Shown piece after piece: positions 10,789 to 34,647 of a stretch of DNA of 34,647 bases (positions are counted from its first letter, which is position 1; each line of letters starts with the position of its first letter). The position numbers were made by a program, and so were the translations under genes. This DNA is from a virus, in the IMG/VR virus record IMGVR_UViG_3300030329_004577, positions 1 to 34,647 of that record; one strand, written 5' to 3'. The notes beneath the pieces are model-generated. The model ran no database searches, was not told where the DNA came from, and saw only the letters and a list, made by a program, of their open reading frames with translations.

Positions 10789-10818
10789 ATTAAAATACCA
10801 GGTATCCAGGAGAACAAA

Positions 10819-12899: not shown

Positions 12900-13311
12900 T
12901 CGATGCCTCAATTTTGAATGTAATTGGGGTTTGACTAACCTGGAGACTGTTTTGTTGGATTGCCATATTAATCAGAGGCTTATCAGGTATTACTCCGTTA
13001 ACCTGGTTGATTCTATCCATAATCTTTAGCACCCTGTCAATGGCGGCGGGATCGCCTTGCATTGCGGAATCCCATTGTCTTAATAACAGGGCGTTATATC
13101 TTTCCATTTGAATGGTTCTGACCTCATCAGCATTACCGATGCTTTCCCTGGCTAAATCTCCAACAACCTTGCGAATATCCTTACTGACAAGACCATGCGA
13201 GATATTTTCTGTTTCCGCAATCTGCCTGTCTGTTGCTCCCGCAACTTTCATCTGCAATATTCGATAACGCCTCAATTGGGCGTTCACTTTTTTACCGTTA
13301 GGACTAGGCAT
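12823..13311 (-). CDS. terS: Terminase small subunit (about 162 aa)
   Basis: The N-terminal region [22 protein letters not shown] is a helix-turn-helix as in small terminases that recognise the packaging site. A long helix ([20 protein letters not shown]) for oligomerisation follows, and the C-terminal tail is unstructured. It is directly upstream of and overlapping terL. The ATG at 13311 is preferred over TTG at 13314. It overlaps the end of the PRTase-FolE gene by 8 nt, which places packaging and DNA-modification genes in one transcript. Confidence 0.82.
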
Positions 13312-14820: not shown

Positions 14821-15199
14821 ATAACGTTAACCTCTCAATTGTTAGGTGTTCCGGTAAATCCTGCAAAATATCAAAGTGAATATCCATTGCTAACCTTTCG
14901 GCAGTCGGTTCATAGTAGGCATGAGATACAACCGAAATAATGCTTCGATTTTCACCGTTAAACCTGGGGTCATCTGCATTTACATGAAATGAATGGTCAT
15001 AATGTTCTTCGATTATCGGTTTAACCACTTCATCAAGATCACCGAAATCAGTTACCATTCCTGTCGTTTTATCTACCTCTCCACTCACCTCAACTTCCAT
15101 CCTGTAATTATGTCCATGCGGGTTATAACATTTGCCTTTATGCCGATATAAGGCATGCCCCATCTCCCAGGCGTATTCCCTGGTTATTGATACTTTCAT
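14780..15199 (-). CDS. queD: 6-carboxytetrahydropterin synthase QueD (139 aa)
   Basis: A T-fold protein with zinc histidines H15, H28 and H30 and active-site C24 (M-G-H-A-L, K-C-Y-N-P-H-G-H-N-Y), then M-V-T-D-F-G-D-L, D-H-S-F and P-T-A-E-R-L-A. It makes carboxytetrahydropterin from dihydroneopterin triphosphate. I start it at the ATG at 15199, with GAGGT seven bases upstream; the in-frame GTG at 15208 has a worse site. The ATGA overlap with the upstream DUF6884-like gene shows coupling. Confidence 0.92.
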   Translation of the reverse strand: MKVSITREYAWEMGHALYRHKGKCYNPHGHNYRMEVEVSGEVDKTTGMVTDFGDLDEVVKPIIEEHYDHSFHVNADDPRFNGENRSIISVVSHAYYEPTAERLAMDIHFDILQDLPEHLTIERLTLYETEKSSATVRNP

Positions 15200-15633
15200 T
15201 GCGTCCACCTCTTTAAAAATCCCTTCTGTCTGTTATTTCTGCCAGTTGTATATTCCTGCAACGGTGCTTTAATATCTGAAATTAATTGTTTTAATAACCG
15301 GAGATAATCTCGTCCCCCTATAAAAACAACAGGCGGGTTTCTCAAGATTTTCAATTCCTTTATCTGCTTTTCTACTGTTGCAATATCCACAGCCCCCTCA
15401 ATTCGATTTTGACTCCACCAATTTGTGACTCCCTTAACTTTTACTTCATACGGTTCTAATTCGGTGTCCAAAGTAACGATTCCATACTTAGCAGATATGA
15501 TGTAAATGTCCTTTCGTTTTGCCCACTTACTGGCACACCGTAAACATGACCGAAAATAACTCCCTGTATAAAGTTTCCATGCAGGGCTTTTTTCTTTTCT
15601 TTTTGTATGTCCGCAGGAAATAATTACGATCAT
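15196..15633 (-). CDS. DUF6884-like protein in the deazaguanine operon (145 aa)
   Basis: The pattern I-S-C-G-H-T-K-R, P-A-W-K-L-Y-T-G-S-Y-F, I-I-S-A-K-Y-G-I-V and L-E-P-Y-E-V matches, from memory, the DUF6884 family found with 7-deazaguanine DNA-modification genes in phages. Four Cys (C7, C30, C33 and no clear partner cluster) do not form an obvious zinc knuckle. It lies between queC and queD with zero-gap and ATGA junctions, so it acts in the same pathway, possibly in further change of the inserted base. Its reaction is unknown to me. Confidence 0.7.
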   Translation of the reverse strand: MIVIISCGHTKRKEKSPAWKLYTGSYFRSCLRCASKWAKRKDIYIISAKYGIVTLDTELEPYEVKVKGVTNWWSQNRIEGAVDIATVEKQIKELKILRNPPVVFIGGRDYLRLLKQLISDIKAPLQEYTTGRNNRQKGFLKRWTQ

Positions 15634-16323
15634 TTAAACTTTTATAAACTCCACATATTGAGTCGGGTCTTCCATACCTATTAATTCAAATGCCTCTTTT
15701 CGTTCCACGCACGTTCCACAAGTACCGCAATGAAACTCATCTCCCTTGTAACAGCTCCAGGTCTGGGAATAATCAATCCCCAACTGCCGTCCTAACTCCG
15801 CAATATCGGCTTTGCTTTTATCGATAAACGGTGTCCAGAGTCTGAGGTTGGGATGACCATGACCTTCAACGGCACATCTCTGCATGAAATCAAATCTGTC
15901 CACAAATTCCGGTCTGCAGTCTGGATATATGGCATGATCTCCGGCATGCATGGCCGCACCTACTTTGGGAACGTTTAAAGAAACCGCCTGGGCATATGCG
16001 ACTGTTAACATGATGGCGTTCCGGTTTGGTACTACCGTCACCGCCATTGTTTCTTCCTCATAATGACCGTCCGGCACTTCAATAGAATCATCGGTTAGAG
16101 CTGACCCACCTAAAACCGAATTAATTCCGGATATGTCAATTACTTTGTGCGGAGCGTCTATATTTTTTGCAAGTAACTGGGCATATTCGATTTCCTTCTT
16201 ATGTCTTTGCCCATAATCGAAAGTTATTAAATAGGGTTTCCCATGATGCTCTTTTACCAGGTGAGCCAGGGTAGCCGAATCCATTCCCCCACTAACAACA
16301 AGAACATGCGAATAATCAGTCAT
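15634..16323 (-). CDS. queC: 7-cyano-7-deazaguanine synthase QueC (229 aa)
   Basis: PP-loop ATPase with S-G-G-M-D-S at 11-16 and the Cys4 zinc site near the C-terminus (W-S-C-Y, then C-G-T-C-G-T-C-V-E-R-K). It converts CDG plus ammonia to preQ0 using ATP. Length is that of stand-alone QueC; there is no glutamine amidotransferase extension (as in Gat-QueC of archaeosine-making phages), and I see no QueF. The ATG overlaps the stop of the DpdA-like gene (ATGA) with GGAGG at the ideal distance. Confidence 0.95.
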   Translation of the reverse strand: MTDYSHVLVVSGGMDSATLAHLVKEHHGKPYLITFDYGQRHKKEIEYAQLLAKNIDAPHKVIDISGINSVLGGSALTDDSIEVPDGHYEEETMAVTVVPNRNAIMLTVAYAQAVSLNVPKVGAAMHAGDHAIYPDCRPEFVDRFDFMQRCAVEGHGHPNLRLWTPFIDKSKADIAELGRQLGIDYSQTWSCYKGDEFHCGTCGTCVERKEAFELIGMEDPTQYVEFIKV

Positions 16324-17141
16324 ACAAAAACCTCCGAATCTTTTTTATAAGCCATTAAGCACATTTCCAACGCCTGGCGGGTTGTTAGTGCGAGAAACAA
16401 TTTGGTTTTGAATTGTGTTTCTACATCCATTGCATAGCGAGTCCAACTCTGGCATCCCAGGGTTCGTGAGATAGACCAACCGCCACGCCAGTTCTTTTCT
16501 ATCTGCAACTCCCTGGGATTAAATCCATAGGATCGAATTATTTTCCACATTTGAGAGGATGGTGCAGTTTCTATTGCCTCTTTTTTACTGTATGACTTAA
16601 ATACACCCTTTCCCATATACACCGATATCTGCCCATATCTCCCGCCGGATTCCCAGGACGAGGCATCACACGAGAAGGGTTTGTAATGTCCCACCATTGA
16701 TGAATGAGTTAATCCCAACCAATGCAGAGGACGGTTTTTATTTTTACTGATAACGTGCTTTAAATAGCCCTTGCTGTTCTTTGTACCTACCAGCCCACCA
16801 ATGCCAACAATGTCACTCGTTTCATAGTAATAATCCAGGTCATCCAAATCCGAACCCCTGGTGAATATAGGTATTGGTTTGAATCCTCTATTCAACATAA
16901 TTTCATAATTCTTTTTTGTTCCCTGGGAATCTCCGATTTTGTCCAGTACAAAATACCGCCAGGGCTTAACAGGCAAAGATTCCAGAAAATCCATATATTC
17001 CTCAACCGAAGTTTCTTTCCCCGATTTCCAGTCAGTAAAAGCACCGGAGTCGATTAACAGGCGTATATCTCTCTCATGTTGAGATATAAACGAAACCATA
17101 TCTCGAGTCATATACGGATAAGCAATTAAGAGATTAAGCAA
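16320..17141 (-). CDS. dpdA: DpdA-like DNA guanine transglycosylase (273 aa)
   Basis: A TIM-barrel protein related to tRNA-guanine transglycosylase. I-D-S-G-A-F at 30-35 (D31) matches the TGT D-S-G-G-F motif, G-I-G-G-L-V-G at 113-119 the substrate-binding loop, and D159 in F-S-C-D-A-S-S-W fits the nucleophile position. No zinc-binding C-x-C-x2-C-H of tRNA TGTs is present, as in phage DpdA enzymes that act on DNA. It would exchange guanine in DNA for preQ0. The start is TTG at 17141; the first strand L-L-I-A-Y-P would be lost from the next ATG, at 17111. It overlaps the ParB-like gene by 8 nt. Confidence 0.85.
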   Translation of the reverse strand: MLNLLIAYPYMTRDMVSFISQHERDIRLLIDSGAFTDWKSGKETSVEEYMDFLESLPVKPWRYFVLDKIGDSQGTKKNYEIMLNRGFKPIPIFTRGSDLDDLDYYYETSDIVGIGGLVGTKNSKGYLKHVISKNKNRPLHWLGLTHSSMVGHYKPFSCDASSWESGGRYGQISVYMGKGVFKSYSKKEAIETAPSSQMWKIIRSYGFNPRELQIEKNWRGGWSISRTLGCQSWTRYAMDVETQFKTKLFLALTTRQALEMCLMAYKKDSEVFV

Positions 17142-17758: not shown

Positions 17759-17778
17759 TTGTACAAATTTGGTACAAA
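17759..17778 (+). promoter_or_regulatory. Integrase arm-type site, left copy
   Basis: TTGTACAAATTTGGTACAAA, identical to 17987-18006 and in the same orientation. The unit is itself nearly two-fold (TTGTACAA and TTGGTACAA). It lies 105 bp left of the attP core. I infer a binding site for the integrase N-terminal domain or Xis. Confidence 0.6.
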
Positions 17779-17986: not shown

Positions 17987-18006
17987 TTGTACAAATTTGG
18001 TACAAA
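17987..18006 (+). promoter_or_regulatory. Integrase arm-type site, right copy
   Basis: Second exact copy of the 20-bp repeat, 58 bp right of the attP core and just after the integrase stop. The two copies are 228 bp apart and flank the core. Confidence 0.6.
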
Positions 18007-18023: not shown

Positions 18024-19271
18024 TCAGTTCTCAATTTTCTTGTCCAATTGAGATTGGTATTTTTCAACAGCTTCCCGCACCATTGTTTCGAATTTCTCAA
18101 CCGCTTTTTCGTCCTGTTGCGGTATCCGGTGCATGTATCCCATGCTCGTCTTGATATCCCCATGCCCGAGCCTGGCCTGGACGATTTTCGGGTTTCCTGT
18201 TTGTGCCATGATATGAGTGGCGTGTGTATGCCTTAAATCATGCGGTCTGAATAAACCTTCTAACTTACTGCCTTTCAAACGTCTACGCCATTCATCTCCC
18301 CAGGAATCAGGATTGATAAACCCACCGGAGTGAATCATGTTGCAATCATTGCAATGGGAGTTTGTGTATGCAATGTCCCTGGTGAATAACAGGTCGTCTA
18401 ATTGAAATGGTGATAATCCCAATTCCTGACGTTCTTTATTTCTTTGATCTAAATAAGCCCTTATCATCAGAGCTGTATTAACTCCAATAGATTGAGTTCT
18501 TAATCCTTGTCCTTTATTTTTATTCTTTTTGACGTTCTGATGATAATAAACGCCGTCTACATAAGTTAATTTCTTAATTATTGTTACTGTTAAAAGATCA
18601 AGGTTTATGTCTCTGATTCTTAATCCCAGAATCTCACTTCGCCTGGCACCGATATTTAAAGCAAAGAAATATGAATGAAACCATTTATTGCCTTGCAGTA
18701 AATCCAACATCAATGCAATTTCTGATTCTGACAGATATCTTTCCGTCTGGTCTGGTGCTTCCGGTTTTTCTACTCCGTCCATCGGATTGTATTTCAACGG
18801 AATTGTTTTTCGGCCTTTCGCCCAGTTAAACATCGCCCTCGTTACATCATAAGTTTTTATTGCTGATGCTGTTGTATGTTTTGATTTCTTTCCGTCAAAA
18901 CGATTAGCAAGGGTTCTTTCCAACATGTTTTCAATATGATTTTCATTTACTTTTAAGATATCCAGATTCCCCAAAACCGGAAGAACGTGATCTTTTAATG
19001 TCTGCCTGTAGACTCTGACGGTTGTGGGCTGTTTTTTTGAGAATGTTTTTTTGTCCCACTCTTTTGCCAGGTCTAGAACGGTCATCTTTTTACCCAGGAA
19101 AATTTCACCGTCTTCCATTTGAGCCTGTATACGCCGCCACCTCTTTAATGCCTGGGCTTTTGTTTCACCTATTGCTCCGCCGAATTTTTTTCTTTTATAT
19201 TTACCGCTAACAGGGTCTTTATATGAATGAAGTGTGTACCATTTACTGCCTCTTTTCTGTATTGATGCCAT
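18024..19271 (-). CDS. int: Tyrosine-recombinase integrase (415 aa)
   Basis: The AP2-like arm-binding domain at 1-60 (GSKWYTLHSYKDPVSGKYKR) is followed by a SAM-like core-binding domain at 62-165 and the catalytic domain. R210 (G-A-R-R-S-E), H344 and R347 (H-D-L-R-H), H370 (L-G-H-G) and nucleophile Y379 (M-G-Y-M) complete the active site. An insert with C307 and C310 (C-N-D-C) could bind zinc. The start follows the repressor stop by one base, with AAGGAGAT upstream, so the two genes share a transcript. The gene ends next to attP. Confidence 0.96.
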   Translation of the reverse strand: MASIQKRGSKWYTLHSYKDPVSGKYKRKKFGGAIGETKAQALKRWRRIQAQMEDGEIFLGKKMTVLDLAKEWDKKTFSKKQPTTVRVYRQTLKDHVLPVLGNLDILKVNENHIENMLERTLANRFDGKKSKHTTASAIKTYDVTRAMFNWAKGRKTIPLKYNPMDGVEKPEAPDQTERYLSESEIALMLDLLQGNKWFHSYFFALNIGARRSEILGLRIRDINLDLLTVTIIKKLTYVDGVYYHQNVKKNKNKGQGLRTQSIGVNTALMIRAYLDQRNKERQELGLSPFQLDDLLFTRDIAYTNSHCNDCNMIHSGGFINPDSWGDEWRRRLKGSKLEGLFRPHDLRHTHATHIMAQTGNPKIVQARLGHGDIKTSMGYMHRIPQQDEKAVEKFETMVREAVEKYQSQLDKKIEN

Positions 19272-20171
19272 TTATATCTCCTTTCCTAATAACGAACCGT
19301 AATATTGATTATTATCTGGAGTCAGCATGTAACCCTGATCATTAAGATACTTTTGCACCGTTGAATATAGAACCTGATGATCTCTGTGCGAGTATGTGTA
19401 TTTTGAAGGATCGCTGTCCATTCGTAAATAAACCCTTTGACCGTATGGCAAAGGAACAATAACTAAAAGAGCAACAACAGGAGGGCTCTCAAGTCCTCTC
19501 TTTGCGATTTCATCTGCATAATTAAATACGCCACCACTTGGAAATTCTTTTACCAGATACCTAGCCAGTAAAGATTCTGTGCTTCCAAGAACTTCAATAT
19601 CACCCTCACCTGAACCCTCAACACCCTTTGCGTACACCTCGATTTCAACGTCGGCATACCCCTTATAGGCATTGAGTGGTTTGTCCCTTCTGATAGACAG
19701 TCGGAAACTTGGGATATGAGGTAATCGTGTCACTATCTCGTCATGCAACGCCCTTAAACCGAAAGCCCAACCGCTATCTGGAAACATATCGGTCAGCTTA
19801 TCCATTGGCGGCCTTGCCGATTTAATCAATAAATCACCACCAGATACAAAGCTCACGCAGTATTCAATGTGCTTCTTCATTAACTCCAGAAGGTCATCCC
19901 CCATACGATTAGAAGCAGTTTTAATGAGCTCAATCGCCTCTTCGGCAATCGGGTTCATATATGGTTTTGGTTCATTTAAGCCCAAATATTCAGCCATGCG
20001 GATTTCGTTGTGCTTGTTTGGCCTCGTCGATTGCCCGGCAAGTAACCGCTGGACAAAGTTTTGTGCAACGTTGGCATCCTCTGCGATTTTTCGGTTGGAT
20101 AAACCTTCTTCGACTTTTTTCTTCAGAAGGGCATTTTGCATGATTTCTGTGGAAATTCCTGAATTATCCAT
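19272..20171 (-). CDS. CI-like HTH regulator (about 299 aa)
   Basis: The N-terminal helix-turn-helix is an XRE type (GLSNRKIAEDANVAQNFVQR). The 200-residue C-terminal part is not a LexA-like protease: I see no Ala-Gly cleavage site with a Ser/Lys pair. It has a beta-rich core (F-R-L-S-I-R-R-D-K, Y-A-D-V-E-I-E-V-Y-A). I use the ATG at 20171, which has GGAG nine bases upstream; the ATG at 20180 sits on the same GGAG. Being upstream of and coupled to int, it is the best candidate for the lysogeny repressor, but this is inference. Confidence 0.75.
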   Translation of the reverse strand: MDNSGISTEIMQNALLKKKVEEGLSNRKIAEDANVAQNFVQRLLAGQSTRPNKHNEIRMAEYLGLNEPKPYMNPIAEEAIELIKTASNRMGDDLLELMKKHIEYCVSFVSGGDLLIKSARPPMDKLTDMFPDSGWAFGLRALHDEIVTRLPHIPSFRLSIRRDKPLNAYKGYADVEIEVYAKGVEGSGEGDIEVLGSTESLLARYLVKEFPSGGVFNYADEIAKRGLESPPVVALLVIVPLPYGQRVYLRMDSDPSKYTYSHRDHQVLYSTVQKYLNDQGYMLTPDNNQYYGSLLGKEI

Positions 20172-20213
20172 AATATCCATCTCCGTTTGTGACTGATGAT
20201 CTAACTATTTTCC

Positions 20214-20290: not shown

Positions 20291-20491
20291 ATGACACAGA
20301 ATATAAAAACGGTAGACAAACAATTAAATGAATTGGGTCGCCGGATTATCTGTAATATCGTTAACGATGCCATCCGGAAGAATTCCCCTGACCCTGTTAA
20401 TCCTGCTGTTGAGTTCTTGCCTGTCCATCTTCGGCTAATGAGTGAAGTATCGTCATTAACAGCTGAACATTGTCAGGATGAATTTGTTTAA
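20291..20491 (+). CDS. Small unknown protein opposing the second HTH gene (66 aa)
   Basis: The protein starts MTQNIKTVDKQLNELGRRII and contains no known motif. AGGA lies eight bases before the ATG and a plausible promoter lies upstream. Its last 95 bases overlap the 3' end of the convergent HTH gene at 20397-20795. A real convergent overlap or an antisense transcript are both possible; confidence is low. Confidence 0.4.
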   Translation: MTQNIKTVDKQLNELGRRIICNIVNDAIRKNSPDPVNPAVEFLPVHLRLMSEVSSLTAEHCQDEFV

Positions 20492-20795
20492 TTAGTAAAA
20501 CCGCCTCTTCAACCAGGGGATCAGGATTTTGCACAATCAGGTCTTCATCATCTATGTACCCCGCCAGGCGAAATAATCTTGCCCTGGGTACGTTCATCGC
20601 ACTTGCTAATGCCCGAATGGTTTTTTGCCTGGGTTCGCTCCCATTTCTCATTTGAGTAAATAGAGCGTTCGGCAGTCCGGCTTTTTCAAACAGTTTAGAA
20701 CCTGTTTTGATATCGCTGTTGGGGCGTTCTTTTCTATGTGTCTCAATCCAGTCTTCAATAAACGCAAAAATAGGCGTACGTGAATCTTGAGTCAT
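20397..20795 (-). CDS. XRE-type HTH regulator (132 aa)
   Basis: Residues 20-70 form a Cro/CI-type HTH (LFEKAGLPNALFTQMRNGSE, then QKTIRALASAMNVPRARLFR), followed by a C-terminal helix pair (LVEEAVLLIKQIHPDNVQLL). The ATG at 20795 has AAGGAAGG four bases upstream; the in-frame ATG at 20825 has no site. It is divergent from the early operon at 20984 and so could control the promoter at 20857-20885. Confidence 0.75.
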   Translation of the reverse strand: MTQDSRTPIFAFIEDWIETHRKERPNSDIKTGSKLFEKAGLPNALFTQMRNGSEPRQKTIRALASAMNVPRARLFRLAGYIDDEDLIVQNPDPLVEEAVLLIKQIHPDNVQLLMTILHSLAEDGQARTQQQD

Positions 20796-20856
20796 AAATC
20801 CTTCCTTTTTCAATTCCGCAGTCATCTTAACTTATTGAAACGAGTTTGACTACACC

Positions 20857-20885
20857 TTGTGATTGCCTAAGAATGACAATATAAT
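20857..20885 (+). promoter_or_regulatory. Early rightward promoter with overlapping dyad
   Basis: TTGTGA at 20857-20862, 17 bp, then a consensus TATAAT at 20880-20885. A perfect inverted repeat ACAAT-ATA-ATTGT at 20876-20888 covers the -10, a likely operator. It drives the replication operon starting at 20984, about 90 bp downstream in an AT-rich leader. Confidence 0.75.
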
Positions 20886-20983
20886 TGTTTTACTGTTATA
20901 AGTTGCTTATTATTATTTATTTATAAATATGTAAGTGAAACAGGGTTTTTATAGCCATCTTAGAACAACAAAAGGAGGACATT

Positions 20984-21334
20984 ATGGTTACTGAAACGAA
21001 GGTTGTGTACGACCAAAAAGAAATGAACAGGTTGGCACATTACTTCACGAAAGAGATGTATGACCTGGAGCGTAATACAACTCAAATGACCCGCCTGTAT
21101 GCCTTGAAGGAACTTGCACAAGACGTTCTGGGAGTTTCGCTCCCTCATGTACACGCCTTGCGGGAGAAGGGTTTAATCAAAACAACTCGCTCAAACGGCA
21201 CTAACGGCAAATATCTCGTGTCATATAAACAGCTTGTTGAATACAAGGTATTTCTTGCCTTAACTGCTGAAGGTATACCGGAAGAAGACGCTCTAACACA
21301 CGCCCACAACGCCTCAATAGGAAAGGAGATTTAA
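20984..21334 (+). CDS. MerR/Xis-like DNA-binding protein (116 aa)
   Basis: The central part, L-Y-A-L-K-E-L-A-Q-D-V-L-G-V-S-L-P-H-V-H and then L-R-E-K-G-L-I-K, is a winged HTH of the excisionase/MerR type with the basic wing K-T-T-R-S-N-G. It continues into a C-terminal helix (YKQLVEYKVFLALTAEGIPE). An AAAGGAGG site precedes the ATG. It is the first gene of the early operon; a regulator or directionality role is likely but unproven. Confidence 0.72.
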   Translation: MVTETKVVYDQKEMNRLAHYFTKEMYDLERNTTQMTRLYALKELAQDVLGVSLPHVHALREKGLIKTTRSNGTNGKYLVSYKQLVEYKVFLALTAEGIPEEDALTHAHNASIGKEI

Positions 21335-21336
21335 TT

Positions 21337-22077
21337 ATGGGAACTGCTATCGTTGATGCCCAAATCGAAAGAATTACCGCAATTTCAACTCATTATATGG
21401 GGGATGCCTGGGAATGTCAGATTCCCGCCAAAGGAATATGCACCTCACCCGCTTTTCCATTCACTTTTAAAATCCGCCGCACAGATGGAATTGAATGTCC
21501 TGTAAAAGTAGGGACAACCAAACTCCTTCTGGAACTAGGGTCTAAAAAGAAGGATTCAAAACGTGACGACCTGTTTGGTTACTGGATAAATGTCATTGAT
21601 TACAACGTTCAAGGCTCTGTGACCGCAACAGATTTCGACAGGGCATCATCTCTGTTAATGGATCAAATACCCGCACCGGAACCAGTACCTCAACCCGCAC
21701 CGCAACAAACCTCTCAAGATGTCTATTCACCTGAACTGGACGAGTGGCAACACATAGAAAACAACGACCCGAATGGGGTTGTAGAGGTTAACCAACCTGA
21801 CGGCATGGGGATAGACATGAAATTAAATATTCCCGAATCAGTTGATGAATATATAAATGGTTTTGATGTATTTCCCGACCCTAGAGGATTTGCAGACTTC
21901 GATATTAACAAGCAAAAAATTTATGTAATGCAAACCGCCATTGATAAGGCAAAAGACTACATTGTCCACCTGGAAGGAATGGACATAAGCATTACCTGGG
22001 ATGACGACACCAGACAACAAGAGCTTGCCAGGTGGACTGAAATTTTTGCGAAATTAATCTGGGGTCAGCACAAATAA
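21337..22077 (+). CDS. Unknown early protein with Pro/Gln linker (246 aa)
   Basis: The first 105 residues are beta-rich (WECQIPAKGICTSPAFPFTF, VGTTKLLLELGSKKKD) and could be an OB-like fold. A linker of P-A-P-E-P-V-P-Q-P-A-P repeats lies at 110-125, and residues 130-246 are acidic with a helical end (DDTRQQELARWTEIFAKLIW). It starts two bases after the preceding gene and overlaps the initiator gene at TAATG. The position next to the initiator suggests a replication or single-strand-binding role; I do not recognise the family. Confidence 0.6.
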   Translation: MGTAIVDAQIERITAISTHYMGDAWECQIPAKGICTSPAFPFTFKIRRTDGIECPVKVGTTKLLLELGSKKKDSKRDDLFGYWINVIDYNVQGSVTATDFDRASSLLMDQIPAPEPVPQPAPQQTSQDVYSPELDEWQHIENNDPNGVVEVNQPDGMGIDMKLNIPESVDEYINGFDVFPDPRGFADFDINKQKIYVMQTAIDKAKDYIVHLEGMDISITWDDDTRQQELARWTEIFAKLIWGQHK

Positions 22078-22928
22078 TGTCTGGCTCTTATTTAGATAAA
22101 GCCGTTTCAATGTTTATCAACAACGATATTCCTCTGGACGAAAAATGTGTCTTGATGTTTATGTGTGCCAAAACAACTGACGGCAACCTCTCTATCTCCA
22201 ACAGGGAATTATTAGGTCTAACTCGTTTTACACCAGAGCGATTAAAAAAGACCATTAATTCCCTGGTGCAACGTGGTTGGCTCGTATTGCTCAGAAGAGG
22301 CGGGGGTCAAATTGTGACTCAATATGAAATTACATTAGAGGGGGGTCTAAATCCAGAGGGGGTCAAATCTAGGGGGGGTGAAAAACAGGGGGGGTCAAAT
22401 CCAGAGGGGGGTCGAAATATACCCCCTCTGAAATCAAACACTATAGTAACAAACAACCCACCTATAGAACCCTCAACTTCCCCTTCTTATATAAATATAG
22501 ATATTAATAAAGATATTAATAATACAGGGGAACCGAAACACAAATATTCTTCTGTTATTGAGATTCTCAGGGAAATAAAAGATTACAACCTTAACCCTGG
22601 AAAAGAACACAACCTGATGAACAGGTTACTCAAAATGAATGTATCGGTAGAACGTGCCGAAAGATGTGCCTCTGAAATTTATACCAACCTATTTTCCCAC
22701 CACTCTAAAGACGGTTCCATTCAATGGTGTTACCGCCAATCTGTAAGCGGTAATAAGAAGGGTTATCACCAGAATTTAGACGGTTGTTATTGGAACTGGT
22801 TGTTGAGGGATATCAAACAAAACAGAAACACCAGAAGAAATAAAACAAATGTCACATCGCCTACTCAATCAACCTGGTCAGATATTGCCAGTAAAAGGAA
22901 CGCAATAACCAATGCTGAAGACGCTTGA
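22077..22928 (+). CDS. Replication initiator, winged-helix (O-like, 283 aa)
   Basis: Residues 1-85 form a winged helix (LSISNRELLGLTRFTPERLK, then T-I-N-S-L-V-Q-R-G-W-L-V-L-L-R-R) typical of phage initiators of the lambda O/DnaD class. The middle (95-160) is a low-complexity linker encoded by the iteron region and AT-rich repeat described separately. The C-terminal part (160-283) has a conserved-looking domain (IEILREIKDYNLNPGKEHNL ... WCYRQSV ... GCYWNWLLRDIK). Followed with a 17-nt overlap by the DnaC-like loader, as O by P in lambda. It would bind the iterons in its own gene and recruit the loader. Confidence 0.8.
   Translation: MSGSYLDKAVSMFINNDIPLDEKCVLMFMCAKTTDGNLSISNRELLGLTRFTPERLKKTINSLVQRGWLVLLRRGGGQIVTQYEITLEGGLNPEGVKSRGGEKQGGSNPEGGRNIPPLKSNTIVTNNPPIEPSTSPSYINIDINKDINNTGEPKHKYSSVIEILREIKDYNLNPGKEHNLMNRLLKMNVSVERAERCASEIYTNLFSHHSKDGSIQWCYRQSVSGNKKGYHQNLDGCYWNWLLRDIKQNRNTRRNKTNVTSPTQSTWSDIASKRNAITNAEDA
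22338..22421 (+). repeat. ori: Five G-rich iterons in the initiator gene (putative origin)
   Basis: Five tandem units of 16-18 bases, each a run of 5-7 G with TCAAATCCA-like remainder: 22338-22355, 22356-22371, 22372-22387, 22388-22403 and 22404-22421. The last runs into an inverted CCCCCTCT so that AGAGGGGG and CCCCCTCT can pair. In protein they read as G-G-x-N-P-E-G repeats, so selection may be on DNA. Lambda ori also lies as iterons inside the initiator gene. Confidence 0.75.
22487..22524 (+). repeat. AT-rich unwinding element with a 12-bp tandem repeat
   Basis: About 38 bases almost without G or C contain AGATATTAATAA twice in direct tandem (22499-22510 and 22511-22522). It lies 66 bp after the iterons, in the same order as in lambda ori (iterons, then AT-rich strand-opening region). 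Confidence 0.65.
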
Positions 22929-23730
22929 AGATATAAAAGAGCGAACATTAAAAACCACTTCTTTTCCTAGCTCCATTGCTCAATGTGGATTAAACAAAAA
23001 AACCGGATTAATTGACTATAACAAGGGATGCGGTCTTTTTGATGGGAAAGACGAATTGCTTCATTCAATAATGGAGATGAGCCGACCTCATGTCCCTGTA
23101 GAAATGGCAATTTGTAGTTGTGCCAGTTCTAGAGAGGAATTAGCCAGGCAACGTCACCAACAACGACTCGCAGATGCAAGGCTACCGCACCATACCTCAG
23201 TCCACAGAACGTTCGATAATTTTAAACCAATGGAAGGCACAGAAACCGCTCTTAAAGCCGCTCTTGATTTCACCCAGGGTATTGGTTCAAACATTTTGGT
23301 TCTTGCGGGCGGTGTTGGTTGTGGAAAAAGCCACCTGTTAGAAGCAATAGGACGAGAGCTGTTGAACCAGGGCAAAACTGTACGTTATCGCCTGGTAGCC
23401 GATTATGTGGACGATTTAAGGCAAGCAGAATCTACCAATACGAAATTCGACCTGATGGATCGGATTTATATAACTAACACAATGATTCTGGACGACCTGG
23501 GAGTTGAGCGGGTTAACGAATACGCCCTTGAGGAAATCACCAAATTAATCGAACACCGATTAATGGAAAGTGACCGGAACTGTCGGCTCGTAATCGCCAC
23601 GAATCTGAATTATCAGGATATGACCAGACAGTTCGACCAACGTATTGCGGACAGGTTGTGGGCTACATCCCTGGACGAAGTTACAACCATTCCAATGACC
23701 GCAACATCTTACAGACAGCCCATCGGATAA
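22912..23730 (+). CDS. DnaC-type helicase loader, AAA+ (272 aa)
   Basis: Walker A A-G-G-V-G-C-G-K-S-H lies at 132-141 and Walker B M-I-L-D-D-L-G at 191-197. Sensor-like V-I-A-T-N-L lies near 226-231 and an arginine-rich end follows. The N-terminal 100 residues include Cys 25, 40, 68 and 70, possibly a zinc element. DnaC/DnaI-like proteins load the host DnaB helicase at the phage origin. The gene starts inside the end of the initiator gene. No phage polymerase is present, so replication would depend on the host. Confidence 0.9.
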   Translation: MLKTLEDIKERTLKTTSFPSSIAQCGLNKKTGLIDYNKGCGLFDGKDELLHSIMEMSRPHVPVEMAICSCASSREELARQRHQQRLADARLPHHTSVHRTFDNFKPMEGTETALKAALDFTQGIGSNILVLAGGVGCGKSHLLEAIGRELLNQGKTVRYRLVADYVDDLRQAESTNTKFDLMDRIYITNTMILDDLGVERVNEYALEEITKLIEHRLMESDRNCRLVIATNLNYQDMTRQFDQRIADRLWATSLDEVTTIPMTATSYRQPIG

Positions 23731-23739
23731 AGGAGAAAA

Positions 23740-23877
23740 ATGCCTAACACAGAACAACCCAACGAATTTGACCCTTGTGATTATTCGGTTAACGCCACCC
23801 ATACAGACTGCCATGAGCAAGAAGTTGAAGAAGGAGAAGAACGAACCTGTTTATATCAAGATCCACACGTTTATTAG
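23740..23877 (+). CDS. Small acidic protein (45 aa)
   Basis: MPNTEQPNEFDPCDYSVNAT ... ending C-L-Y-Q-D-P-H-V-Y. AAAGGAGA precedes the ATG and the stop is followed at once by the AGGAG of the next gene. Three Cys and many Glu/Asp; no family recognised. Confidence 0.65.
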   Translation: MPNTEQPNEFDPCDYSVNATHTDCHEQEVEEGEERTCLYQDPHVY

Positions 23878-23886
23878 GAGTAACAA

Positions 23887-24330
23887 ATGACAACAGAGAC
23901 ACCTTATAAGGACGCTCTTTTAGATTCCACCAGAAGAACAGTACCAAAACATGAAACCGGATTATGTGACAACTTCAAAGCAGTATCTAAAAGATATACA
24001 TGCGTGAGCAATGTCGACCTGTTTTATCAGAAGGAATCAATAATAAAAACCAAATTAAGCAAAGCGTTAAACGTTTCAAAAAGAAAAATTAAAGTAATCC
24101 GACAACCGGAAAGGGAGAGCGGGTTTTACCTCAAAGGGCAATATAAACCTGTTATTAAGTACCTGGATGCCATTAAACGGTATTTAACCTCGGAAGACTA
24201 CAAATCCCTCAACCCCATTACTGACCTGGCTGTATTTACCGCTAAAGACAAAAAACAGCGTCGCCTCTGTGTCAACTGTTGGGATCATAAAGATATTAAT
24301 TCCAAGATAAAAGAGGACAAAGTTGCCTGA
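23887..24330 (+). CDS. Unknown basic protein (147 aa)
   Basis: A Lys-rich protein (K-L-S-K-A-L-N-V-S-K-R-K-I-K-V-I-R) with a C-terminal Cys pair (L-C-V-N-C-W-D-H). No domain recognised; the charge suggests nucleic-acid binding. TAGGAG lies 5 nt upstream. It is between the helicase loader and a nuclease, inside the replication operon. Stop TGA is followed directly by the GTG start of the nuclease. Confidence 0.6.
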   Translation: MTTETPYKDALLDSTRRTVPKHETGLCDNFKAVSKRYTCVSNVDLFYQKESIIKTKLSKALNVSKRKIKVIRQPERESGFYLKGQYKPVIKYLDAIKRYLTSEDYKSLNPITDLAVFTAKDKKQRRLCVNCWDHKDINSKIKEDKVA

Positions 24331-24699
24331 GTGATTGATGCGAATGAATTTATAACTGCATACCTTGAAAAAGAATGGTTAAACCAATCTGAAAAACAGT
24401 TTCAGGAATGGTTGGTAAGAGAGGCGAAATCAAGAGATTGGGAGCTTATCTATCACACCTGGAACAGCAAGAACTCAGCAAAGGGGTTTCCAGACCTGGT
24501 TATGTTGAAAGGTAACCGTCAAATATACGCCGAATTAAAAAGTCATAAAAACCGAAAAGGACTATCAGATGATCAAAAGATATGGATTAACCATCTGAGG
24601 GCGATCACATGTCAATGCGGATGCGGTAACAAGTCGAATGAGGTGTATGTCTGGTATCCAAAACACAAGGATCAAATATTGGAAGTTTTAAATGGCTAA
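24331..24699 (+). CDS. VRR-NUC nuclease (122 aa)
   Basis: A compact PD-(D/E)xK nuclease: E-K-Q-F-Q-E-W-L-V-R-E-A-K near residue 20, G-F-P-D-L-V-M near 52-58 and Y-A-E-L-K-S near 66-71 give the D...E-x-K pair. Small VRR-NUC proteins act on branched DNA or in recombination. Start GTG follows the previous TGA without a gap. A C-Q-C-G-C-G cluster near residue 93 is extra. Confidence 0.85.
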   Translation: MIDANEFITAYLEKEWLNQSEKQFQEWLVREAKSRDWELIYHTWNSKNSAKGFPDLVMLKGNRQIYAELKSHKNRKGLSDDQKIWINHLRAITCQCGCGNKSNEVYVWYPKHKDQILEVLNG

Positions 24700-24940
24700 A
24701 TACAAATATACTCCAGATAATTGCCCAGGCCATCATTATATTCTTGATGCACCGGACGGCCTAGAACGCAAACCTACAGCAAGCGGAGCCTGTAAACATT
24801 GCGGGGACTTCGTTGAGGGGTTACCGAACCGATTTATTCCCAGAACGAAGAGGCGAGTCATTAAACAAGTTAATGGACGTTCTTACGAGGCAGAAATTGC
24901 GGACATAACCTACTCAAACAACGCAACGCCGTTTTTCTAA
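24692..24940 (+). CDS. Small protein with zinc-like Cys/His pair (82 aa)
   Basis: The protein starts MAKYKYTPDNCPGHHYILDA and carries C11, H14, H15 and C33, C36 (A-C-K-H-C-G), plausible ligands for one zinc. Its basic tail is P-R-T-K-R-R-V-I-K. It overlaps the nuclease by 8 nt and ends convergently, sharing 4 nt with the Cro-like gene. Confidence 0.6.
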   Translation: MAKYKYTPDNCPGHHYILDAPDGLERKPTASGACKHCGDFVEGLPNRFIPRTKRRVIKQVNGRSYEAEIADITYSNNATPFF

Positions 24941-25125
24941 TTGCCGACTTTAACTCTTTGAATAAGTACATCCAAATAATGGTCAACAGGGTTAAACATG
25001 GAAGGAATATATGTTCCTTCTTTCCACCTGTAAATGGTCATCCTGGTAACTCCTAATTCTTTTCCCAGGGCTTCCGGCAACCATCCATTTTCTAATAAAA
25101 ATTTTATCTTCTCAGCTATTGTCAT
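24937..25125 (-). CDS. Cro-like HTH regulator with leaderless start (62 aa)
   Basis: Almost the whole protein is one HTH: MTIAEKIKFLLENGWLPEAL, then G-K-E-L-G-V-T-R-M-T-I-Y-R-W-K-E-G. No Shine-Dalgarno precedes the ATG. The predicted -10 (TACACT, 25132-25137) ends six bases before it, so transcription would begin at the A of ATG, as for lambda cI from PRM. It is a single reversed gene within the rightward operon. An operator variant overlaps its promoter, and perfect copies lie at the next rightward promoter and at 10.55 kb, so it is the prime candidate for the protein binding them. Confidence 0.75.
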   Translation of the reverse strand: MTIAEKIKFLLENGWLPEALGKELGVTRMTIYRWKEGTYIPSMFNPVDHYLDVLIQRVKVGN

Positions 25126-25131
25126 ATTAAG

Positions 25132-25160
25132 AGTGTAACACGATGTTAAGCAATTTGAAA
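25132..25160 (-). promoter_or_regulatory. Leftward promoter of the Cro-like gene
   Basis: On the minus strand TTTCAA (25160-25155), 17 bp, then TACACT (25137-25132). The expected start coincides with the ATG of the 62-aa gene. The operator variant 25135-25149 covers the -10 in the same place as in the two rightward promoters. Confidence 0.6.
25135..25149. promoter_or_regulatory. Operator variant GTAACA-CGA-TGTTAA
   Basis: One mismatch in the dyad against the perfect copies at 25189-25203 and 10552-10566. The 54-bp centre-to-centre distance from the perfect site is about five helical turns, which would allow cooperative binding. Confidence 0.6.
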
Positions 25161-25177
25161 ACTCAGGAACAAAGTCG

Positions 25178-25206
25178 TTGTCTATTTCGTAACATAGTGT
25201 TACAAT
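25178..25206 (+). promoter_or_regulatory. Second early rightward promoter (P2)
   Basis: TTGTCT at 25178-25183, 17 bp, then TACAAT at 25201-25206, almost identical to P1. It drives the chain of small genes and the methyltransferase (25250-27481). Confidence 0.8.
25189..25203. promoter_or_regulatory. Operator dyad GTAACA-TAG-TGTTAC in P2
   Basis: Perfect 6-bp inverted repeat overlapping the -10, identical to 10552-10566. Confidence 0.75.
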
Positions 25207-25249: not shown

Positions 25250-25426
25250 ATGACAACAGTAACTAAGTTCCAGACCCGCTTCGGGGAAACCGCCTGGGCG
25301 GTTACCTGGGGGCCAGGGTTGACCCAGACGGTTATCTGCTCCTCTGAGGAAGAGGCCGCAGAGGTCGCAAAGACCCACAGGGCAGAGGCTCGATTCGTCG
25401 AGCCTCTGGTGGAGTTGGTTGCCTAA
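25250..25426 (+). CDS. Small unknown protein (58 aa)
   Basis: The protein starts MTTVTKFQTRFGETAWAVTW, beta-rich, then an acidic helix C-S-S-E-E-E-A-A-E-V-A. CAGGAGG precedes the ATG. The stop overlaps the next ATG (TAATG). Codon use is visibly richer in G and C than in the neighbours (CCTGGGCGG, GGGGGCCAGG), perhaps from another source. Confidence 0.65.
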   Translation: MTTVTKFQTRFGETAWAVTWGPGLTQTVICSSEEEAAEVAKTHRAEARFVEPLVELVA

Positions 25427-25584
25427 TGTTTATCACCTTAAACGAATTTAAAGAGCAATATTTCGAACAATTAGCTGAAGAGCATGGTGAGAAACGAGCT
25501 TTAATCGAAACCGAAAAACTTACTCAGGATGACTGGATTGATTTAGCAGACCAGGGAGATATGACCAATGAAGAAATTAATTAA
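25426..25584 (+). CDS. Small acidic protein (52 aa)
   Basis: MFITLNEFKEQYFEQLAEEH ... ending G-D-M-T-N-E-E-I-N. Helical, Glu-rich, starting at the TAATG junction. No family recognised. Confidence 0.6.
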   Translation: MFITLNEFKEQYFEQLAEEHGEKRALIETEKLTQDDWIDLADQGDMTNEEIN

Positions 25585-25654
25585 ACGCATACGGCGACTG
25601 CGTATCGTGTTCGGATTTGACGGCAAACTCAAAATCATTTACAGGAGCAAATAA
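25568..25654 (+). CDS. Very short basic peptide (28 aa)
   Basis: MKKLIKRIRRLRIVFGFDGK plus eight residues. GGGAG lies nine bases upstream and it overlaps both neighbours (17 nt, and TAATG at the end). The strong positive charge (K-R-I-R-R-L-R) after an acidic gene is notable. Its reality rests on spacing and overlap only. Confidence 0.4.
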   Translation: MKKLIKRIRRLRIVFGFDGKLKIIYRSK

Positions 25655-25935
25655 TGTCTTATAACGGTTGGAAAAACAGAGAAACATGGCTGGTCAACGT
25701 ATGGCTAGGAAACGATAAATTCGCCGATGAACATTCAAGAGATGTTGCTAATCAAAAGATTGAATTATATGAACGAGCCGACACCCTAAAAGAGTTCGTT
25801 TATTTGATGTGCATGGGCGAGGAACGAGAGATTGATGGACAGACTTCTGGCCTGGCTGTCGACCTTCTAAACGACGCAATCGAAACGGTTGATTTCAGAG
25901 AATTAATCCAGAGTTACGAGGAAGAAAATGAATAA
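25654..25935 (+). CDS. Conserved-type small phage protein (DUF7249-like, 93 aa)
   Basis: The opening Y-N-G-W-K-N-R-E-T-W-L-V-N-V-W-L-G-N-D is a pattern I remember from small phage and plasmid proteins (DUF7249-type). The rest is helical, with D-L-L-N-D-A-I near the end. The function is unknown. It overlaps the short peptide gene at TAATG and the next gene by 8 nt. Confidence 0.65.
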   Translation: MSYNGWKNRETWLVNVWLGNDKFADEHSRDVANQKIELYERADTLKEFVYLMCMGEEREIDGQTSGLAVDLLNDAIETVDFRELIQSYEEENE

Positions 25936-26416
25936 TTGTATCTACTGCAAAAACCCAATTTCCAAAAATTTAATAGCCTGTCGGGAGTGTATCCAACAAA
26001 ATGGAAATCCATGTTGGAAATGTGGCATAACGGTTGGAGTCTGGCAATCTACTCATGATCCTAGTGTGTCTGAGGGAGCTTACATATGCAATTTCTGTAC
26101 TAGCAAAATTGCCCAGGAACAAAAAGAAGCTGAGTTCCAAAAATTCCAAACCGATTGGCGGGAGCGGAAAGATTTAAAGAAAACATATACTGATGAGGAA
26201 CTGGACAAAGCCGTTGAATATGACCTTTATGATCTCTTCAATGACTTTGTATCTCCCAACATTTACAAAGCATTAGAAGACCCAGATATGCAGAAAAGAT
26301 TCACCGAGGTACGAAACACTATTGTCGATTTAATCGGTGAATATCGGCAAGAAATTAAATATCAAGAATATTTAGATATGCCCAATTTGTGCATATTCGA
26401 TCCAAGCCTGGATTAA
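25928..26416 (+). CDS. Protein with N-terminal zinc fingers (162 aa)
   Basis: Four C-x2-C pairs occur in the first 56 residues (C-I-Y-C, C-R-E-C, C-W-K-C, C-N-F-C), a treble-clef-like double zinc site. Residues 60-162 are acidic and helical (DELDKAVEYDLYDLFNDFVS). No family recognised; a DNA- or RNA-binding adaptor is possible. Confidence 0.65.
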   Translation: MNNCIYCKNPISKNLIACRECIQQNGNPCWKCGITVGVWQSTHDPSVSEGAYICNFCTSKIAQEQKEAEFQKFQTDWRERKDLKKTYTDEELDKAVEYDLYDLFNDFVSPNIYKALEDPDMQKRFTEVRNTIVDLIGEYRQEIKYQEYLDMPNLCIFDPSLD

Positions 26417-26425
26417 AAGGAAGAT

Positions 26426-27250
26426 ATGAAAAATGTTGTTATACATCCCGCCCTCGATACTTTATCCCTATATAGCGGAATCGGAGGACTTGAACTCGGT
26501 CTTGCACAAGCTCTCCGAATTAACGTCCGTGCTTACATTGAGAGGGAGTTTTCGTGCGTCCGGATACTGGCACAACGATCTGAAGAAAACCGGCTCGATA
26601 AGGGTCTTATATACAGCGATGTCGAATCCTTCCCTGTTGAAAGATACAGAGACAAAATTTCTGTCATCATTGGGGGATTCCCATGCCAACCCTGGTCTCA
26701 GGCAAACCACACAAAAAACAAAGGCGAAACCGACAGCAGAAATGGTTGGCCTCAAGTCATCAGATTCATTCGCACAATTCGACCCGATCTCGTATTCCTG
26801 GAAAACGTTCCAAATATCCTTAATCACGAATACTTTGGAACAATACTCGGAGACTTATCCCAGGCAGGGTTCAATGCAGAATGGGGTTGTTTCCAGGGTT
26901 TGGACGTTGGAATCCCACAACACAGAGAACGGCTCTTTATACTGGGCTACGCCAACGACAAGAGACTGGAAGGATGGGGTAAGTTCAGATTCGGTTCCGG
27001 AGAACGCTCTACTGGGCAGACAAGCCCCGAACTGGGTGATCAGAAATCTGTCCCGCCTACCAGAGACAACATCGAAGGATGGACACAAGTGTGGACAGAA
27101 ATGCCTGATCTTAAACCCGCTATTTGCAAACTGGCTACAGGGGTTCCCGATAGGATGGGGCAATTACAGATGTTCGGAAACGCAGTAATCCCCGCAGTCG
27201 CAACATTCGCCTTTAATCAGTTAGCCGACCGGATAATGGACAAAAAATAA
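26426..27250 (+). CDS. C5-cytosine DNA methyltransferase (274 aa)
   Basis: All key motifs are present in order: I (L-Y-S-G-I-G-G-L-E at 15-23), IV (G-G-F-P-C-Q-P-W with catalytic C87), VI (E-N-V at 126-128), VIII (Q-H-R-E-R-L-F at 165-171) and X (F-G-N-A-V-I-P-A-V-A near 248). The target-recognition region between VIII and IX is short (about 70 residues). It methylates cytosine in a sequence I cannot predict; no nuclease partner is adjacent, so it is an orphan, likely for protection. AAGGAAG lies before the ATG. Confidence 0.93.
   Translation: MKNVVIHPALDTLSLYSGIGGLELGLAQALRINVRAYIEREFSCVRILAQRSEENRLDKGLIYSDVESFPVERYRDKISVIIGGFPCQPWSQANHTKNKGETDSRNGWPQVIRFIRTIRPDLVFLENVPNILNHEYFGTILGDLSQAGFNAEWGCFQGLDVGIPQHRERLFILGYANDKRLEGWGKFRFGSGERSTGQTSPELGDQKSVPPTRDNIEGWTQVWTEMPDLKPAICKLATGVPDRMGQLQMFGNAVIPAVATFAFNQLADRIMDKK
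26433..27188 (+). CDS. Long overlapping frame inside the methyltransferase (251 codons, +1 frame)
   Basis: Open for 251 codons in another frame over almost the whole methyltransferase. The latter half reads like a known phage/metagenome protein family: Q-F-D-P-I-S-Y-S-W-K-T, S-E-T-Y-P-R-Q-G-S-M-Q-N-G, W-A-T-P-T-T-R-D-W-K-D-G and L-N-P-L-F-A-N-W-L-Q-G-F-P-I-G-W. The GGAAG site of the main gene is nine bases before this ATG, so either could start there; M104 at 26742 is another possible start. It may be a true overprinted gene or a frame shadow kept open by motif codons. I do not know its function. Confidence 0.45.
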   Translation: MLLYIPPSILYPYIAESEDLNSVLHKLSELTSVLTLRGSFRASGYWHNDLKKTGSIRVLYTAMSNPSLLKDTETKFLSSLGDSHANPGLRQTTQKTKAKPTAEMVGLKSSDSFAQFDPISYSWKTFQISLITNTLEQYSETYPRQGSMQNGVVSRVWTLESHNTENGSLYWATPTTRDWKDGVSSDSVPENALLGRQAPNWVIRNLSRLPETTSKDGHKCGQKCLILNPLFANWLQGFPIGWGNYRCSETQ

Positions 27251-27259
27251 GGAGATAAC

Positions 27260-27481
27260 ATGAATGAACCGGAATACATAACTGCACCAGAAGCACTTAG
27301 ATATTTAGAAGAACGAAAGATGATTTCGAAAAATACATTTTATAAATGTATTAAGAACGGTGAAATTCCTCATATAAAACTTGGACGGAAAATTTTCATC
27401 AGAAAAGATTTTCTAAAACAAATAGCAGACCTCACCGCTTTAAAAATCCAGGCTGAAAACCAAAAAAAACCCAGATATTAA
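27260..27481 (+). CDS. xis: Excisionase-like HTH protein (73 aa)
   Basis: A single winged HTH of the Xis/HTH_17 type: Y-I-T-A-P-E-A-L-R-Y-L-E-E-R, N-T-F-Y-K-C-I-K-N-G-E-I-P-H-I-K-L-G-R-K-I-F-I-R in pieces, then a Lys-rich tail. AAGGAGAT lies before the ATG. It is the last gene of the early operon and shares 4 nt with the end of the convergent membrane-protein gene. It may direct excision or act as a regulator. Confidence 0.7.
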   Translation: MNEPEYITAPEALRYLEERKMISKNTFYKCIKNGEIPHIKLGRKIFIRKDFLKQIADLTALKIQAENQKKPRY

Positions 27482-32979: not shown

Positions 32980-34647
32980 TTAACTCCATCCGAAACTGCC
33001 CCAGTAGACTTCGTTCCAATTTCCTGTTGTTTGATTTAATCCCGCTCTAGTCAGGTGAACTGTTTCTTCGACTACTGTGTTTCCGTTATAAAATTTGTAC
33101 TGATAACCGTCGATATATGAATGTCCGGTAAACCCCATGTCTGTTTCTATAACATTGACCATATCGCTCAGTCTTCTATGAACCATCTGCATCAATGTCG
33201 CCTTATCGTTATTTATTAAATCGCACCGCATTCTTAGAATCGGTTCTTTTAATTTGGTCAACATATGCTCTGCACAGGTTTGAGCATCCCCTGCTGTAGT
33301 AAAAAATGTATGTTCCCTGGACTTTTTTCTTTCACCATAAAGAGTTACTGAATCCGAATCTGCCACACGCCTCATGCCTCTGGAAGAGTTGTTTCCCTGA
33401 ACGTGGACATTGGTTTTCATCACGGTGATATACCCATTGGATGCAGAGTCATTTCTGATAGTCCAAGACGTAAATCGGCCACCGTATTTCCTCGCATTTC
33501 CTTCGGTTTTTGTGAAAGCCAGTAATGACCCCGAACCATCTGACGCTGTATTAATTTGAACTCTATCGCTTGAGGTGGGGCTAGTGACTGAACCTGTATC
33601 TCCTGCGATTCCATGAAACAGAGTGTCTGTTGTATCCCCTGTCACGGAAGATTTGGCAACAAATTCCTGAGTCTCCCCTGCGGATATAGCAATAGGTTCG
33701 TTCAGTTCCCATCCTGTAGTTCCTGCGGTAAGGCTTGAAGTTAAATTTGTCTTTGACTCCCTTGTTATAAACCCAATCTCGATTTCGTTGTAGACTCCAT
33801 CAATTCCCTCGTTATAAGAATATTGTCTGTATCCTGCATTTGTGCCGTCATAGGAATCCTTAAAAGTTCCGACAACTCTTTTATGGACTCCAGTATTTCT
33901 GTGAGTTCTCTCTTCAAAACGTAGGAACCCCCGACCGTCCACATATAAGAAACCGTCTTCTGTATCCTGCACTCTGTAAAGCGTTTCGAGAACCGTTTCA
34001 CCGTCAAGGGATTCGGCGTTCAAATATGGACTCATGCCAAGTGGGTAAGTAATCAAATAGTTATTGATAGAACTATAAATCACGTCTCCCGAATCCTGCC
34101 CCACAGGGGAAAGCATATGCCCTGCAAGGCTAGAGGTTCTTGCTTCTGACGATACATTTAACTGACCATACCCATGAGTTAATTTATAATCCTCAAACAG
34201 GTCGTATGCTTTCATATAGCAATACTGCATACCCTTTTGAGGTCGTGGTGTTATTTCTTTTAATGTTCCCTTGAACAATGGGCGAAATCCACCGAACTCA
34301 TGAAATTTTGCATCTGTGGCTCCCTGCTGAGTATAGAATCCATGCTTGGTCGCATTATCCAAAGCAGAAGCACCATCTAATTTAAAACCATGGTATGTTC
34401 CATCATTACCAGTTGAATTTGGGTAAACTTTTGCGTCATCTATGTAAAGCCGAATGGTGTCCCCATGAATCTCCGCACCGAGTTTTTTCTTAGTCCCTGA
34501 CCCCCATGTATACGAAACCTGTGAATCCGCTGTGCCTGTTCCACATAAGGAATCAGTACCGCCAATGACTTTCCTGACTTGAATGTGATTGGTCGAGACA
34601 ATAATTCGGACATATAAATAATTATTATTGTCGATATATCTCAGAAC
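32980..34647 (-). CDS. Tail tip/hub protein, C-terminal part (continues at the left end)
   Basis: The frame reads from 32980 back to the right edge and, through the 98-bp overlap, to its start at 601 (722 residues in all). Within this part lie the end of the jelly-roll-like region (GAEIHGDTIRLYIDDAKVYP), then segments such as YPLGMSPYLNAESLDGETVL, DGFLYVDGRGFLRFEERTHR and the C-terminal HLTRAGLNQTTGNWNEVYWG. It precedes the S74 fibre and follows the tape measure, so it connects tube and fibre. Confidence 0.8.
   Translation of the reverse strand, partial: VLRYIDNNNYLYVRIIVSTNHIQVRKVIGGTDSLCGTGTADSQVSYTWGSGTKKKLGAEIHGDTIRLYIDDAKVYPNSTGNDGTYHGFKLDGASALDNATKHGFYTQQGATDAKFHEFGGFRPLFKGTLKEITPRPQKGMQYCYMKAYDLFEDYKLTHGYGQLNVSSEARTSSLAGHMLSPVGQDSGDVIYSSINNYLITYPLGMSPYLNAESLDGETVLETLYRVQDTEDGFLYVDGRGFLRFEERTHRNTGVHKRVVGTFKDSYDGTNAGYRQYSYNEGIDGVYNEIEIGFITRESKTNLTSSLTAGTTGWELNEPIAISAGETQEFVAKSSVTGDTTDTLFHGIAGDTGSVTSPTSSDRVQINTASDGSGSLLAFTKTEGNARKYGGRFTSWTIRNDSASNGYITVMKTNVHVQGNNSSRGMRRVADSDSVTLYGERKKSREHTFFTTAGDAQTCAEHMLTKLKEPILRMRCDLINNDKATLMQMVHRRLSDMVNVIETDMGFTGHSYIDGYQYKFYNGNTVVEETVHLTRAGLNQTTGNWNEVYWGSFGWS
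34550..34647. repeat. Terminal direct repeat, right copy
   Basis: Identical to 3-100. Together the copies close the genome at 34,549 bp. Confidence 0.95.

Follow-up and report, generated by a model that had tools for sequence, protein, structure and literature searches.

Among the early genes of the phage genome analysed here, a 62-aa helix-turn-helix (HTH) gene, hereafter HTH62, is read in the reverse direction, and an operator-like dyad at its promoter recurs at two other promoters, one of them belonging to a distant cassette amid the virion genes. This arrangement raises the question of whether HTH62 runs a regulatory circuit of its own and how far that circuit reaches. Judged from its sequence, HTH62 is likely a small Cro/CI-type repressor of its own promoter, of the divergent early operon, and of the distant cassette.

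The window, meaning the whole stretch of DNA analysed, is virus record IMGVR_UViG_3300030329_004577 (34,647 bases). Bases 3-100 are identical to bases 34550-34647, and this terminal repeat makes a complete genome probable. The record is a temperate tailed phage with its virion genes on the minus strand and the following landmarks.

8279-10342: portal gene, on one side of the distant cassette
10603-11317, plus strand: distant cassette of three small genes (61, 75, and 76 aa), reversed relative to the late genes
11712-12911: TerL gene, on the other side of the cassette
18024-19271: integrase gene
19272-20180: int-linked 302-aa HTH_3 protein, predicted to bind DNA
20397-20825, minus strand: int-linked CI-like repressor gene, 142 aa (phrog_3949, E 2.8e-8), product predicted to bind DNA
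20984-24940, plus strand: upstream early operon
24937-25125, minus strand: HTH62, proposed Cro/CI-type repressor, with a predicted leaderless mRNA from 25125
25250-27481, plus strand: early operon proposed to be controlled, divergent from HTH62

The best isolate phage matches listed for TerL included none above 31% identity, TerS and TerL searches of genome contigs found no close prophage, and a DnaC-like neighbour used as bait brought in no relatives. A 7-deazaguanine gene cassette at 13304-17141 (GTP cyclohydrolase I, QueE-like radical SAM, QueD-like, QueC, and possible DpdA-like genes), retained in contig L066 and partly in L008, suggests that the phage DNA is modified. Beside the integrase gene, an exact 19-bp dyad repeat, TTGTACAAATTTGGTACAA, stands at 17759-17777 and 17987-18005; its copies bracket a stretch resembling a tRNA 3' end (TTCAATCCTGACCGTTGGCTCCA), and the whole probably represents attP together with the arm sites of the integrase. 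The DnaD-like initiator gene contains tandem repeats both in the window (22339-22418, 16-bp G-rich units) and in the related genome G005 (L062:7734-7856, 33-bp units with CCTACCAAAATTGGTAG); these may be iterons of a replication origin that lies inside the gene.

The HTH62 gene and its predicted leaderless start

Profile comparison matched HTH62 to the phrog_8 transcriptional regulator (E 8.3e-6), and two Pfam families, HTH_23 (E 2.7e-5) and HTH_3 (E 1.2e-4, 22.5 bits against a curated cut-off of 23), were hit just under their curated cut-offs. The protein has the HTH_3/XRE-type HTH domain of phage repressors, and a symmetric operator-like site, recognized by its letters, stands at its own promoter (25135-25149). 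A Cro in the lambda sense is encoded in the primary immunity region and uses the same operators as CI. HTH62 is separated from the int-linked repressor region by about 4.1 kb, and no copy of its dyad within two mismatches was found in the CI-like promoter region (20826-20983), so the gene is filed as Cro/CI-type and not as Cro. The label Cro-like in the first-pass annotation is apt for a small Cro/CI-type HTH protein (phrog_8, HTH_23); a Cro-like role in lysis or lysogeny would be a conjecture. A single-sequence structure model of HTH62 was poor (pLDDT 66), and a structure search with this model returned no useful match.

The start of the gene was compared with that of a homolog in G005, whose TerL is 77% identical to that of the window.

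25132-25137, minus strand: HTH62 -10, TACACT, extended (TGT in front), in the same register as the plus-strand sites described below
L062 11408-11614, same orientation as HTH62: syntenic homolog in G005

HTH62 has no Shine-Dalgarno (SD) sequence, and its -10 ends 6 nt before the ATG, the layout of a leaderless repressor gene and the sole such case among 45 checked starts. The G005 homolog, 35% identical over 43 residues (29% in another alignment), lies between homologs of the 82-aa and 58-aa genes, as HTH62 does, and begins with TACAAT-N6-ATG, again without an SD. Based on this geometry, its uniqueness, and its recurrence in G005, the HTH62 mRNA probably starts at the ATG, in line with the first-pass prediction. 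Lambda cI is a leaderless phage repressor gene, and in phage PY54 both the cI and the cro mRNAs start at the AUG according to 5' RACE (PMC4488713).

The promoter itself is less clear-cut. It was not listed by the promoter scan, the sequence at the 17-bp distance (TTTCAA, 25155-25160) is a poor -35 with 3/6 matches, and transcription would depend on the extended -10. This favours a variant of the explanation, compatible with its remaining parts, in which HTH62 is a repressor whose mRNA carries a leader from an upstream promoter and the -10 near the ATG is fortuitous. Such a variant is unlikely, given that HTH62 lacks an SD and that the -10-N6-ATG geometry, unique among the checked starts, is kept in a homolog of 29-35% identity.

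Operator-like dyads at three promoters

The dyads and the two plus-strand promoters are located as follows.

25189-25203, plus strand: perfect operator-like dyad, GTAACATAGTGTTAC, at the early operon promoter
10552-10566, plus strand: perfect operator-like dyad, GTAACATAGTGTTAC, at the distant cassette promoter, identical to 25189-25203
25135-25149, minus strand: operator-like dyad with one mismatch, GTAACACGATGTTAA, at the HTH62 promoter
25178-25206, plus strand: early operon promoter, TTGTCT-17-TACAAT, with an extended -10, from the promoter scan
10541-10569, plus strand: distant cassette promoter, TTGTCT-17-TACAAT, from the promoter scan, a near-copy of 25178-25206

The two perfect and one imperfect copies of GTAACA-N3-TGTTAC described in the first-pass annotation were confirmed in position and letters, the perfect ones sharing the centre TAG. 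The spacing between the two sites at the HTH62 locus is 54 bp, and the third site lies about 14.6 kb away amid virion genes. Overlap with the -10 in one register, claimed earlier, was seen at 3/3 sites; at the plus-strand promoters, both listed by the scan with TG ahead of the -10, the final TAC of the dyad is the first half of the -10. A 17-bp spacer had likewise been assigned to all three promoters, which is firm for the plus-strand pair and doubtful for HTH62 with its 3/6 element. Both plus-strand promoters contain the -35 to -10 block TTGTCTATT-N2-GTAACATAGTGTTACAATA within a 54-bp repeat of 78% identity, and their 18-bp RBS stretches are 94% alike, so that they look like copies of one module.

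Chance would rarely produce such a set. Two perfect copies were found against 0.005 expected, three copies with at most one mismatch against 0.145 expected, and only 0.3% of 600 order-3 Markov genomes contained an exact repeat of any dyad of 15 bp or more. A scan with two mismatches allowed was not significant (three found, 1.33 expected; 20/100 shuffles).

It could be argued that no regulation is involved and that the dyad simply comes with an extended -10 (TGTTACAAT) and with the copying of a promoter, the second perfect site being a duplicated promoter. TGTTAC does belong to the extended -10, the two plus-strand promoters do look like copies, and GTAACA-N3-TGTTATAAT is present in many phage promoters, some of which precede genes that we take to be cyanophage psbA. 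The third site, however, is part of a minus-strand promoter unrelated to the other two and still keeps 11/12 dyad letters, and a homolog in a different phage, G048, repeats the plan with other letters; this reading is thus considered very unlikely. The promoter design TTG-N8-GTAACA-N3-TGTTAyAAT was found in 40 other viral contigs, mostly without such an HTH gene adjoining, so promoter and dyad alone prove nothing. These contigs were rejected as examples of the same circuit, since many represent promoters of psbA, as we read it, and of other genes. A near-palindrome over the -10 that resembles the GTAACA-N3-TGTTAC dyad, TTGACAT-N4-GTAACATTTTGTTATAAT, was also observed in L081, L086, L088, L095, and L104, in promoters before a 360-aa protein that is presumably photosystem protein PsbA.

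The search of related phages for the same dyad, suggested in the first-pass annotation, came back empty: 34 records related by TerL contained no copy with at most one mismatch, and an exact search of viral contigs with the 18-mer (dyad plus AAT) gave no match. G005 lacks the GTAACA dyad, and the promoter of its 58-aa gene has a perfect 8-4-8 dyad directly after the -10 (found in 0.7% of random 100-bp pieces), which is taken as a candidate operator. In L070 and L072, a RusA-like gene replaces the HTH gene beside the 58-aa gene; L080 shares this layout, with the 61-aa gene in the position of the 58-aa gene, and no comparable dyad was found at that place in any of the three. A dyad in G005 versus none in the three RusA-like relatives fits a link between HTH gene and putative operator, the cases being few.

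A parallel comes from G048, a contig of an unrelated phage, whose HTH protein is 50% identical to HTH62 over 34 residues (recognition region TRMTVYNW versus TRMTIYRW in HTH62). A divergent operon, which we read as a recombination operon (RecT-like, YqaJ-like), adjoins this gene, and the dyad GTATA-N5-TATAC recurs on the contig.

G048 1250-1264: perfect GTATA-N5-TATAC at the HTH promoter
G048 1305-1319: GTATA-N5-TATAC with one mismatch at the divergent promoter, 55 bp away
G048 12252-12266: perfect GTATA-N5-TATAC in the gap between a leftward and a rightward gene, 11 kb away

The two perfect copies compare with 0.015 expected, and none of 400 simulated genomes had two. In its predicted sites, G048 is an independent repeat of the three-site (two-plus-one) plan with other letters. 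For a third HTH relative, in L006, a perfect dyad lies between the -35 and the -10, and the divergent neighbour of this gene is presumably a second HTH gene. The half-site starts with GTA in all three cases (window, G048, and L006), a small number. HTH matches in Streptococcus and faecal phages were uninformative on operators, because the gene, where annotated, mostly lies behind same-strand genes.

These comparisons also bear on whether the dyads serve another regulator, namely the 142-aa CI-like protein, the 302-aa HTH_3 protein, or a host factor, with HTH62 merely being controlled. Both int-linked proteins are predicted to bind DNA, and action of a phage repressor at numerous distant positions has precedents, an example being the mycobacteriophage stoperator repressors (PMC9283540). 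Against this stands the CI-like promoter region, which lacks the GTAACA dyad even with two mismatches allowed and has a different one, ACAATATAATTGT at 20876. Moreover, HTH62 has two of the three sites beside it, as is usual for an autoregulator, and the homologous HTH gene of G048 likewise adjoins its dyads. Control by another regulator is therefore regarded as quite unlikely, and HTH62 remains the preferred candidate for reading the dyads.

The cassette between terminase and portal genes

Outside the window, a single relative of the 61-aa gene of the distant cassette was found, with 74% identity, in G047 (L080), where it leads the early operon; the promoter of this homolog resembles the 58-aa gene promoter in L070. 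Because the homolog heads an early operon, the cassette gives the impression of an early module moved in from elsewhere, which would have brought along the promoter, operator, RBS, and first gene of an early operon and would keep early timing inside late DNA. Two hammerhead ribozyme-like RNAs (L080:4905-4975 and 5202-5253) were observed on either side of the 61-aa homolog in G047. The downstream one, of type I, matched Rfam RF00163 with 29.9 bits (E 2.9e-5), under the gathering score (34). Immediately ahead of the RBS of the homolog, a type III-like core was recognized by eye and by a core-motif search, and its predicted minimum-energy fold contained no hammerhead.

Among relatives, the terminase-portal slot ranges from about 130 bp to 1.9 kb, and the slots of G007 and G008 hold reversed genes too. 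An exact 11-mer, AGGTATAAACA, is common to the G007 slot promoter and two early promoters: its four copies on the minus strand of G007 (L063/L064; 17043, 18647, 24479, and 24569) comprise two at early promoters and two at the reversed slot gene. This repeat is only moderately unusual, as some such 11-mer appeared in 20% of simulations. The slot promoters of G007 and G008 contain the element within a perfect TGTTTA-N6-TAAACA dyad. No element common to early promoters and slot cassette was found in G005 or L072. Tentatively, reversed early modules may have landed in the slot repeatedly within this phage group, wired to the regulator of the early region by copied operators, in which the letters change between phages (GTAACA-N3-TGTTAC here, TGTTTA-N6-TAAACA in G007) and the wiring persists; we rate this idea as possible and somewhat doubtful.

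The proposed circuit and known phage switches

For the proposed circuit, HTH62, presumably as a dimer, would bind the 15-bp GTAACA-N3-TGTTAC site over the spacer and -10 of the three promoters and thereby exclude RNA polymerase. The two perfect sites, presumably strong, would control the early operon at 25250-27481 and the cassette at 10603-11317, and the imperfect, presumably weaker own site would confer autorepression at a higher HTH62 level, after the other two are filled. Binding, dimerization, repression, and the order of site filling are all predicted from the arrangement of gene and sites. The early operon encodes a 58-aa conserved protein (73-78% identical in five other contigs), a 52-aa protein, DUF7249, a 162-aa protein, a C5-cytosine methylase, and a 73-aa HTH_17 (excisionase-like) protein. 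No terminator-like site was found on the plus strand between 24940 and 25250, so upstream early transcription could cross HTH62 antisense into the next operon. Such read-through from the early operon at 20984-24940 would switch HTH62 off on entry to the lytic programme, which is a possible mode of shut-off.

The HTH62 and int-linked circuits look separate because no copy of the dyad within two mismatches lies in the CI-like promoter region, in agreement with the independent second circuit first postulated. Its extension to the distant cassette, also postulated, is the best-supported reading, with a perfect predicted operator in the copied promoter at 10541-10569. In essence, the circuit would be an ordinary Cro/CI-type one with an autoregulated, divergent regulator; its unusual trait would be that it extends to a displaced early module far away.

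The PY54 cI/cro switch resembles it in having small repressor genes and a palindromic operator (16 bp in PY54). PY54 Cro, in contrast, binds a single genomic site (OR3), compared with three sites here, one of them 14.6 kb away (PMC4488713), and HTH62, unlike its PY54 counterparts, lies apart from the int-linked repressor. N15 immA is similarly a second regulatory locus apart from the primary immunity region, but it is an antirepressor operon (antA, icd, and antB), and the likeness concerns layout (PMC4488713). Cluster O mycobacteriophages (the Corndog group; PMC4351075) are similar in that their divergent promoters are predicted to be leaderless, a reversed gene within the structural operon has its own promoter, and a dyad with a 3-bp centre (TGTTCGG-N3-CCGAACA) is repeated. 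That dyad occurs 34 times, with fourteen copies in intergenic positions, and no regulator is named for it in the sections considered here, whereas each of the three copies in the window lies at a promoter and the set is linked to an HTH gene. The mycobacteriophage stoperator repressors also have sites spread across the genome; these are asymmetric, bound by a monomer, and stop elongation (PMC9283540). A stoperator system was rejected for the window, which has three sites only, symmetric and all at promoters. Small divergent Cro/C1-type HTH genes are likewise present as homologs in Vibrio phage 219E41.1, Yersinia phage P400, and phage C72C1, although their recognition helices and dyads differ from those of HTH62.

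These results suggest a compact three-promoter circuit in which a 62-aa protein, made from an mRNA predicted to be leaderless, would act at three 15-bp sites that probably differ in strength, two being stronger than the third. If this is true, a module amid the late genes keeps its early control via an operator carried along with it, and the circuit would offer a functional handle on small genes without known role in an uncultivated phage group.
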